From: Fructilactobacillus cliffordii
GTDB taxonomy: Bacteria; Bacillota; Bacilli; Lactobacillales; Lactobacillaceae
NCBI RefSeq assembly: GCF_024029355.1
Contig: NZ_CP097117.1
Coordinates: 434,001 to 498,000 of the forward strand
Length of the DNA stretch: 64,000 nucleotides
Direction of reading: 5' to 3'
Below, piece by piece: positions 45,636 through 47,645 of this stretch. Positions within the stretch are counted from its first letter, which is position 1, and each line of letters begins with the position of its first letter. Below the pieces are notes generated by a model that ran no database searches, was not told where the DNA came from, and saw only the letters and a program-made list of their open reading frames with translations. Position numbers and translations under genes: made by a program.

Positions 45636-45683
45636 AAAAAAGTCGTTAGCAAGCGCTAACGACTTTTGATAGTAATTAATTAT
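45636..45683. repeat. Direct repeat A (48 bp), distal end of the island
   Basis: 46 of 48 bases match 47598-47645. It contains a hairpin GTCGTTAGC / GCTAACGAC with flanking A and T tracts (a terminator) and the stop codon of the 186-residue gene. The stop codon is at the same offset as the eno stop in the other copy. Confidence 0.95.
45640..45665 (-). terminator. Terminator of the island (copy A)
   Basis: Stem AAGTCGTTAGC / GCTAACGACTT with a 4-nt loop and T run on the minus strand. It ends transcription of the ATPase / nuclease-like pair and is a duplicate of the eno terminator. Confidence 0.88.
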
Positions 45684-46240
45684 AAATCAAATTCATATTT
45701 AAATTCTTCACTTGTTAATCCATCAATCTTTTTTACAATAACATTTTCCAATGATTCCATACTTTCAATTTTATTCATCCATCCTGTTTTAATTGATTCA
45801 GTATTGGCTAAATCAGCTATTTCTTCATGTATTTTATTTATGCTTGGGAATTCATCATTATAAACAATTACATATCTAACTTTATTAAATATTTGACATA
45901 TAGTTAACTCAAATATATTAGAAAGAATAATCATGCTATCATAAATTTTCATTCTTAAATCTTTGTTTTTAACATGCTTATACTGACCATTTTTAAATTC
46001 TACAAAAATAATATCATCAAAATTAGAGTCTAACCAAAACATAGTATCAGCTGATTTAAAATATTTAAATTTTTTATTTTCAAAATTTTCTTTAATTTTA
46101 TCAAAATTCAAAACTTTCACATCGCTAATAACTAATGATTGACACTGACTATCATCAAAAGAGGCATCAGTTATGCGATCAATAAATTGATCCATATTTT
46201 TTTCTTTAATCAAATTACTATCCAAATGTACATTTGCCAC
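45680..46240 (-). CDS. Putative PD-(D/E)xK nuclease-like protein of the island
   Basis: A 186-residue protein in A+T-rich codons unlike its neighbours. The region ADTMFWLDSNFDDIIFVEFKNG (residues ~64-85) has acidic residues followed by E81-F-K83 at the end of a hydrophobic strand, the pattern of a PD-(D/E)xK active site. A second strand VRYVIVYND follows at ~121-129. No other motif is recognised, so nuclease function is inference. GTG start at 46240 with AGAGGA upstream, 14 bp after the ATPase stop, so the two form one operon. The stop lies inside direct repeat A. A toxin or a sensor partner of the ATPase is an alternative. Confidence 0.6.
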   Translation of the reverse strand: MANVHLDSNLIKEKNMDQFIDRITDASFDDSQCQSLVISDVKVLNFDKIKENFENKKFKYFKSADTMFWLDSNFDDIIFVEFKNGQYKHVKNKDLRMKIYDSMIILSNIFELTICQIFNKVRYVIVYNDEFPSINKIHEEIADLANTESIKTGWMNKIESMESLENVIVKKIDGLTSEEFKYEFDL

Positions 46241-46254
46241 TATTAAATCCTCTA

Positions 46255-47558
46255 CTAATAATTTTCTTCGTTTTTTTGATCAATATCATTTTGTATTTTA
46301 TTAAGCACATCAAATGGTTTTGCCATTAACTTGTATATTTCATCAATAGACTCTGTAACATCATTAATAAAAGTTTTCTCATCTTCTATACTAGAAAGAT
46401 AATACCTTGTTTTTTTGTCAATATCATAATACTCAGAATAAACCTGCAATGCCTGAAGAAAATATGGACTATGAGTAGTACATATTACATGCATTTTAAA
46501 TTCTTTTTGAATTAATACAATTATTTCGGCAAATATAATCTGCCATTTTGGATGTAGATTTATTTCTGGTTCATCTAAAATCAATAATCCATTTTTTTTA
46601 TAAAACCTTTCAATATTAGTTCCTTAATATAAATAAATGATTTAAGCCCAGACGAAACGTTATTTATATTTATCCTTTTGTTATTTTCTATATAAAAATA
46701 TCCGTCAGATTCATCTTGAATCATTTCCCCAGGAACAACTCTTTTAATATTTCCAATTAACTTATTTAGTTTTTTATTGTTTAATACCCAATCGATCTCA
46801 TCCACATTATATTTTTTATTATTAAGCATTTTATTAAAATCTATATTATGATTATTATGGTTAATACCTAATAACAAGCTTTCAGATTCATCTTCAAATC
46901 GACTCTGACCATCTATATATATAGGAAAAACTTCTAGGTCAATTGGTTCATTGATTTCAGATATACTATTATCATAAAATTCGAATGATGTTTTTGTTTT
47001 AGAAATCTCTAATTGTATAAGTGATTTTTTATTTGATTCATATAAATTTGAAATTTGACCATTAAATTCAGCTTCAAAATTTCCAGAAGATAAATTTTTA
47101 AAAATATCATAATCTGAAACATTTAATATTTCTTCAATTATTTCAACGATTTGTTTTTTTTCAATTTCCAAATTATCACTATTAAAAAATTCAAAAATTT
47201 CATCTACTAATTTATTAGAATCTTGAACTTCATCACTCATGAAATTTTCTAAGAGTGAATTAATATTATTTCTAAAAGTTAGAAAAGATCTCATAGAATA
47301 ATTAGATCTAATAGATTCTCTTCGCAATGATCCCCTGCGTAATGATCTTCGTACAATTCCCAATATAGATTTTTTTAGTTTATTTAATCTATTATAATAT
47401 ATTTTTTCTTTATAATTATTCAGAGATTTAAATGCAGCATAAAGAGCTTTATTTACAGTACTTTTACCAGTATTATTATCTCCTGCAATAATTGTTAATC
47501 CATTAATTTCTATCTGTGAATCATTTAATTTACCAATGTTTTTTAAACTTAACTTCAT
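46255..47558 (-). pseudogene. AAA/ABC-type (OLD-like, AAA15) ATPase, split by a -1 frame change
   Basis: An SMC/OLD-like ATPase. The first frame (47558-46581, 325 residues) has Walker A GDNNTGKST (26-34) and a signature-like NVSSGLKSF (~300), and ends KKMDY-stop. The second frame (46584-46255) supplies Walker B LLILDEPEINLHP and the H-loop CTTHSPYFLQ. The frames join at a run of eight A. One extra A or a -1 slip gives a continuous protein of about 434 residues with all motifs in order. Nothing else looks decayed. The first ATG follows AAGGTGAAATA. It may be a broken gene, a homopolymer sequencing error, or a gene using programmed slippage. Strong A+T bias indicates transfer. Confidence 0.75.
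46592..46599 (-). other. A8 slippery run joining the two ATPase frames
   Basis: The minus strand reads ATA-AAA-AAA-ATG in the first frame, which contains A-AAA-AAA, a classic -1 slippage heptamer. GAAAGG lies a few bases upstream and could act as an internal Shine-Dalgarno stimulator. The first-frame stop TGA overlaps a TTG of the second frame, so coupled re-initiation is a further possibility. Confidence 0.6.
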
Positions 47559-47597
47559 TATTTCACCTTGTTAATTATAGTAATATACAAAACTTAT

Positions 47598-47645
47598 AAA
47601 AAAGTCGTTAGCAAGCGCTAACGACTTCTGATGGTAATTAATTAT
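47598..47645. repeat. Direct repeat B (48 bp), eno end of the island
   Basis: Partner of 45636-45683, with two mismatches. It spans the eno stop codon and its terminator hairpin. The distance between copies is 1962 bp; recombination between them would remove the island and restore a normal eno-terminator-secG junction. Confidence 0.95.
47602..47627 (-). terminator. eno terminator (copy B)
   Basis: Stem AAGTCGTTAGC / GCTAACGACTT with T run on the minus strand, 15 bp after the eno stop. It insulates the island from eno transcription. The island therefore needs its own promoter in the ~40 A+T-rich bases before 47558, where a TATAAT is present but no clear -35. Confidence 0.88.

Follow-up and report, generated by a model that had tools for sequence, protein, structure and literature searches.

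The locus between the enolase gene eno and secG in Fructilactobacillus cliffordii raises the question of how two adjoining genes came to lie behind a core gene in such a way that each side of the pair carries a copy of one 48-bp stretch with a stop codon and a terminator-like hairpin. The locus was studied in a window of 64,000 nucleotides (NCBI RefSeq assembly GCF_024029355.1, contig NZ_CP097117.1, positions 434,001 to 498,000), and all coordinates refer to the first letter of this window. Most probably (we put the probability at about 75%) a two-gene anti-phage module was acquired and came to lie between eno and secG, whereby a 48-bp target was duplicated. The parts of this reading that were observed directly are the empty site of a closely related genome, the exact period of the repeat, the two copies of the hairpin, the conserved operon and the conserved catalytic residues of the nuclease partner.

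The two copies of the direct repeat (Table 1) are identical at 46 of 48 positions and lie at a period of 1,962 bp, as a preliminary description of this DNA, made from its letters, had stated. The repeat score of 42 is far outside chance: in controls, for which upstream zones of some loci were paired with downstream zones of others, the largest scores were 17 (n = 1,500) and 24 (n = 2,000). The stop codons were also found at equal offsets, at positions 45-47 of the 48 in both copies (partner gene 45680-45682; eno 47642-47644). From there each copy continues with a short A+T-rich stretch, a hairpin of 13 pairs and a row of T. Between the copies the GC content, measured in steps of 500 bases, was 0.22-0.27 against 0.42-0.54 outside, two edge-spanning steps excepted, which bears out the described richness in A and T.

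The interval between eno and secG was then compared in ten genomes of the genus, the source genome (G000) included. The nearest relative by enolase (G001, 100% identical) possesses a single 48-bp unit after eno, and secG follows at 149 bp. An 80-kb counterpart from this genome is collinear with the window and is broken at 45683/47598, where the window holds 1,914 bp more and the two sides overlap by 48 bp in G001. The distance from eno to secG in the window (2,111 bp) minus one period gives 149 bp, the exact spacing of G001, and either repeat copy of the window differs by one base from the single copy there. In six further genomes (G002, G004, G005, G007, G008 and G009) eno, a hairpin and secG follow each other at 144-153 bp with diverged hairpins. 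The preliminary description had held that removal of one period restores this order and that the insertion was precise; both statements agree with the empty site. The insertion of the gene pair together with a duplicated target hairpin is thus real and exact. That eno and secG are usual neighbours in lactobacilli, as had also been supposed, applies within this genus to 7 of 10 genomes, which show them 144-153 bp apart, but not to other genera, where secG lay 1.1-4.4 kb behind eno in all 77 genomes in which it was located. The two remaining genomes of the genus (G003 and G006) contain a different gene, of secreted type, between eno and secG; in the sequence available behind this gene, no copy of the eno hairpin was seen. 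In the gene of G003 (L014) an LPRTG motif is visible, and the gene of G006 (L011) has an in-frame TGA near its end.

Table 1. Features of the eno-secG locus, in window coordinates (aa, amino acids; ORF, open reading frame).
Feature	Coordinates	Strand	Remarks
eno (enolase, 439 aa), host gene	47642..48961	-	stop codon within the proximal repeat copy; 89-100% identity, 10 genomes of the genus
eno-side 48-bp repeat copy	47598..47645	-	eno stop codon, short 3' stretch, hairpin, T run; unflagged in consensus scan
Inserted segment, 1,914 bp	45684..47597	-	23% GC; absent from G001
OLD-type ABC ATPase, N-terminal part, 325 aa	46581..47558	-	Walker A GDNNTGKST, signature-like NVSSGLKSF
Run of eight A, site of the ATPase frame change	46592..46599	-	
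Same ATPase, C-terminal part, 109-aa ORF, other frame	46255..46584	-	Walker B LDEPEINLHP, H-loop TTHSPYF; listed start codon mechanical
Putative PD-(D/E)XK-type nuclease partner, 186 aa	45680..46240	-	D65, E81, K83 invariant in 30 aligned sequences
Distal 48-bp repeat copy	45636..45683	-	partner-gene stop codon and second terminator-like hairpin, now preceding secG
secG, gene behind eno in the empty site	45295..45531	-	

Both hairpins are strong, with folding energies of -17.7 and -17.8 kcal/mol, and none of 200 shuffled sequences was equally stable. A scan for the terminator consensus flagged the distal copy alone as terminator-like. Therefore, of the described terminator in each copy the hairpins themselves stand, but termination at both of them is inferred. 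We read the missing flag of the eno copy as due to its pairing, which consumes part of the T row.

Concerning the cargo, an ATPase gene and a small nuclease-like gene had been described, and both are present. In the putative nuclease the residues D65, E81 and K83 of a D...ExK motif are invariant in 30 of 30 aligned partners, to which it shows 24-33% identity. A Foldseek comparison with the PDB gave no match at E ≤ 0.001, and support for a PD-(D/E)XK fold is moderate. A homologous partner follows the ATPase gene directly in 70 of 89 relative loci examined; the two genes form a conserved operon. With the 325-aa N-terminal part as query, 349 proteins including the query itself were obtained, and the 119 others listed showed identities of 30-36% and are mostly about 420 aa long. 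The ATPase also matched the PADLOC profiles PD-T4-4_A (2.5e-11) and HEC-02A (3.2e-9).

Within the lactobacillus family the module is rare. The profile of the partner matched in one of 395 family genomes, i.e. only in that of the window. The ATPase was matched at E ≤ 0.001 in 6 of 397 family genomes, namely in its own genome and by five weak matches over 42-64 residues. Two relatives at the level of the order possess the ATPase and show no flanking repeat.

The ATPase gene does not stand as the single gene that had been described, but is split into ORFs of 325 and 109 aa at a run of eight A. The frame is unbroken, at 407-460 aa, in 86 of the 89 relative loci; of the other three, one measures 283 aa and two are cut off by the contig end. 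General frame noise was rejected as the cause, as none was seen in a survey of ORFs with a length of 250 aa or more from sampled stretches, in which 0 of 205 ORFs of G001 were split in G000 and 3 of 201 ORFs of G000 were split in G001. The split may be a real mutation, a phase-variable state, a case of slippage or a single homopolymer error. With its ATPase gene interrupted in this assembly, the module may be inactive or in decay.

The four motifs of the ATPase, which we take to be Walker A, signature, Walker B and H-loop, are all present, spread here over the two frames, and a putative nuclease with D...ExK residues follows directly downstream. Both features define the group around WonAB, which combines an OLD-type ATP-binding cassette (ABC) ATPase with a PD-(D/E)xK partner, both of which are required, and acts by abortive infection after phage DNA replication has started and before capsid assembly (PMC12137116). 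The wider group named there includes operons of the type 'OLD-ABC ATPase + novel REase' and PD-T4-4 (PMC12137116). WonAB and the former operons are the closest published kin that we found, the window pair being likened to them by gene order and motifs. Like these systems (PMC12137116), the pair shows an ATPase followed by a small putative PD-(D/E)xK nuclease, OLD-like ABC motifs, a conserved catalytic lysine and a scattered distribution; unlike them, it is chromosomal with no prophage genes in the insert, and the frame of its ATPase is broken. Because order and motifs are shared with WonAB, a similar defence role is the most likely reading of the pair. The suggested link to phage defence therefore stands in so far as defence-profile searches and the conserved catalytic residues place the pair in a kind with published anti-phage members, but anti-phage activity of this pair is ascribed by analogy.

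Other known systems agree with the pair less well. PD-T4-4 (PMC9519451, PMC10952713), whose profile PD-T4-4_A matches the ATPase, would require both of its profiles, and the partner showed no match to PD-T4-4_B at E ≤ 1. For the PADLOC candidate system HEC-02, the match of HEC-02A to the ATPase is accompanied by a weak and partial match of HEC-02B to the catalytic stretch of the partner (E 0.0021, residues 65-97, 33 residues); across the 30 partners, one HEC-02B model matched 4 at 1e-3 and another matched 2. Models of AriA, PtuA and GajA partly matched the ATPase of the window and six intact relatives. PARIS, Septu and Gabija are defined by their partners AriB, PtuB (HNH) and GajB, respectively, or by a fused TOPRIM domain, and were rejected, since no match to AriB, PtuB or GajB was found in the partner. 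The module is a further member of a known, wide and still little-studied group of families.

The pattern of the insertion itself has a precedent. Insertion with long target duplication was reported for restriction-modification genes (Nobusato et al. 2000, as described in PMC2749054, PMC3031569, PMC4978471 and PMC1643837), and the locus matches this pattern. As in those cases, a gene set of low GC content with nuclease cargo is absent from a relative, is bracketed by long direct copies of its target and contains no detected transposase or integrase. At the present locus these features correspond to the empty site of G001, the target copied at both ends and an insert without a transposase or integrase match. 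The locus differs in its cargo, an ATPase and a putative nuclease; in its target, a unit reaching from stop codon to hairpin; and in its host, a member of the lactobacillus family and not Helicobacter. A methyltransferase, which would be expected from the usual, though not defining, association with restriction-modification, was not matched in the insert. The present insertion between eno and secG was not found in the literature searched.

The following course of events is proposed. A WonAB-like pair, with an OLD-type ABC ATPase as putative sensor and a PD-(D/E)XK nuclease as putative effector, would have been acquired from a distant A+T-rich source, probably later than the split of this lineage from G001. 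Insertion between eno and secG would have duplicated a 48-bp target comprising the eno stop codon through the terminator hairpin. Thereby eno would have kept its hairpin, the new operon would have gained a stop codon and a hairpin, and the stretch from hairpin to secG would have stayed as in G001. The copying of the 48 bp is the least certain step; we favour either an illegitimate event, for example a template switch at the hairpin, or the integration of a hairpin-carrying small circle by a single crossover. Entry may have been site-specific, homologous or illegitimate.

It had been suggested that such islands form a recurring class of cargo which enters at terminators and duplicates them. Among 110 eno 3' regions gathered from the family, 101 were usable; the other nine offered too short a stretch from eno to secG or to the end of the retrieved piece, and they include the seven genomes of the genus in which secG follows eno closely. 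Of all 110 regions, 86 showed secG; in the remaining 24 it lay outside the retrieved sequence, which spanned only 1.5 kb at 20 loci. The window alone among the 101 showed a duplication behind eno. In addition, insertions or replacements of 300 bp or more were surveyed between 424 kb of G000 and 440 kb of G001, and between 360 kb each of G005 and G007 (314 kb chained). No long flanking repeat was found in 18 of 19 and in 17 of 17 of these differences, respectively, with the eno island as the sole exception. A recurrent terminator-targeting island was therefore rejected for this sample (1/101 eno loci; 1/19 and 0/17 differences), and since the window stands alone in the eno set and in both genome pairs, the event is, on this evidence, a single one.

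Among loci carrying the module, flanking repeats above controls occurred in 3 of 70, namely the window, L034 and L062. In L034 (3479-8175), a Lachnospiraceae contig, a relative of the module is flanked by the palindrome ACTTTAGGACA...TGTCCTAAAGT, which is present in four copies, and the locus gives the impression of a row of gene cassettes with copies of a single hairpin between them. The repeat at L062 is presumably of a generic kind.

Some further differences were seen between the window and G001. One insert of G001 (L152:10733-11807; 1,075 bp, 24% GC) consists of a single 305-aa gene with an FRG domain (PF08867) beside a visible hairpin and has no long flanking repeat. About 17 kb present in G001 are missing from the window at 23837-23973. 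At 52495-53195, where window and G001 do not align (703 bp versus 480 bp), a phenolic acid decarboxylase gene (PF05870) adjoins tRNA-Arg(ccg).

Besides the proposed insertion, other explanations of the repeat have to be weighed. The island might have been built in another strain and have arrived as linear DNA through homologous recombination within eno and secG, so that the duplication predates its arrival. The flanks are indeed close to G001 (97.0-99.7% identity over 1.5 kb of eno; 98.7% at 45100-45399, which includes part of secG; 89-96% across most of the next 4.5 kb), and the single-base deviations of the repeat copies from G001 suit such an import as well. The donor would therefore have to be close kin; however, the island was found in no other of the 395 genomes, and this explanation places the duplication event in another strain and does not account for it. 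We consider it unlikely, though to be taken seriously.

Alternatively, the repeats could be the attachment sites attL and attR of a tyrosine-recombinase element whose integrase was lost or acted in trans, with the palindromic hairpin as attachment core. The 48-bp identity and the near-perfect core palindrome resemble attachment sites in size and shape, and the source genome contains seven matches to PF00589, all elsewhere. Relatives of the ATPase are encoded in 21 viral-contig loci, with the partner present in 7 of the 9 examined and the other 12 outside this count, so that a phage-borne route is open. On the other hand, family-profile searches of the three ORFs of the insert gave no recombinase or transposase match, in agreement with the described lack of such genes nearby, and the nearest match to PF00589 lies about 87.5 kb off, other recombinase families not having been searched genome-wide. 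An integrase-bearing genomic island was rejected, as no integrase was found inside or adjacent. Furthermore, the hairpin pattern had no exact match in viral contigs, neither the island DNA nor the ATPase was matched in plasmid records, and the phage records yielded one distant ATPase match (26% over 69%). Taken with the lack of a further duplication at the 101 eno loci, these results make attachment sites rather improbable.

Loss of an ancestral island from the relatives is very improbable. A crossover of the 48-bp repeats would yield exactly the empty site of G001; against this stand the six further empty genomes with diverged hairpins, the two that hold another gene, the 394 family genomes unmatched by the partner profile, and the GC content of the insert (23% against 42-54% nearby). 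Finally, likeness among terminators is common, but a generic terminator that brackets the genes by chance, which the preliminary description had itself raised as an objection, is refuted, because a search of all 1,459,401 bases of the single-contig genome found the hairpin pattern (≤ 3 mismatches) at these two sites only. The extension of the match by 18 bp past the hairpin as far as the stop codon, with 16 of these 18 bp identical, and the control scores likewise speak against it.

Insertion of an acquired module with duplication of its target thus is the preferred reading, and the locus offers a clean example for which an empty site is available: a small, probably anti-phage pair that settled behind a core gene, lacks a recombinase of its own and is bordered at each side by a terminator-like hairpin. 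Long target duplication, known from restriction-modification genes, is thereby extended to a pair of ATPase and nuclease genes within the lactobacillus family. The exact junction can be used for testing models of such insertion. That the duplicated stretch coincides exactly with the unit from stop codon to terminator may be chance or part of how such cassettes enter. A more general idea, which we hold to be quite improbable, is that small integrase-free defence cassettes enter at host terminator hairpins and copy the whole unit from stop codon to terminator. If it were true, every insertion would bring transcription insulation for both host and cargo, and the process would have left the 48-bp repeat as its footprint, a repeat that would also permit clean loss.
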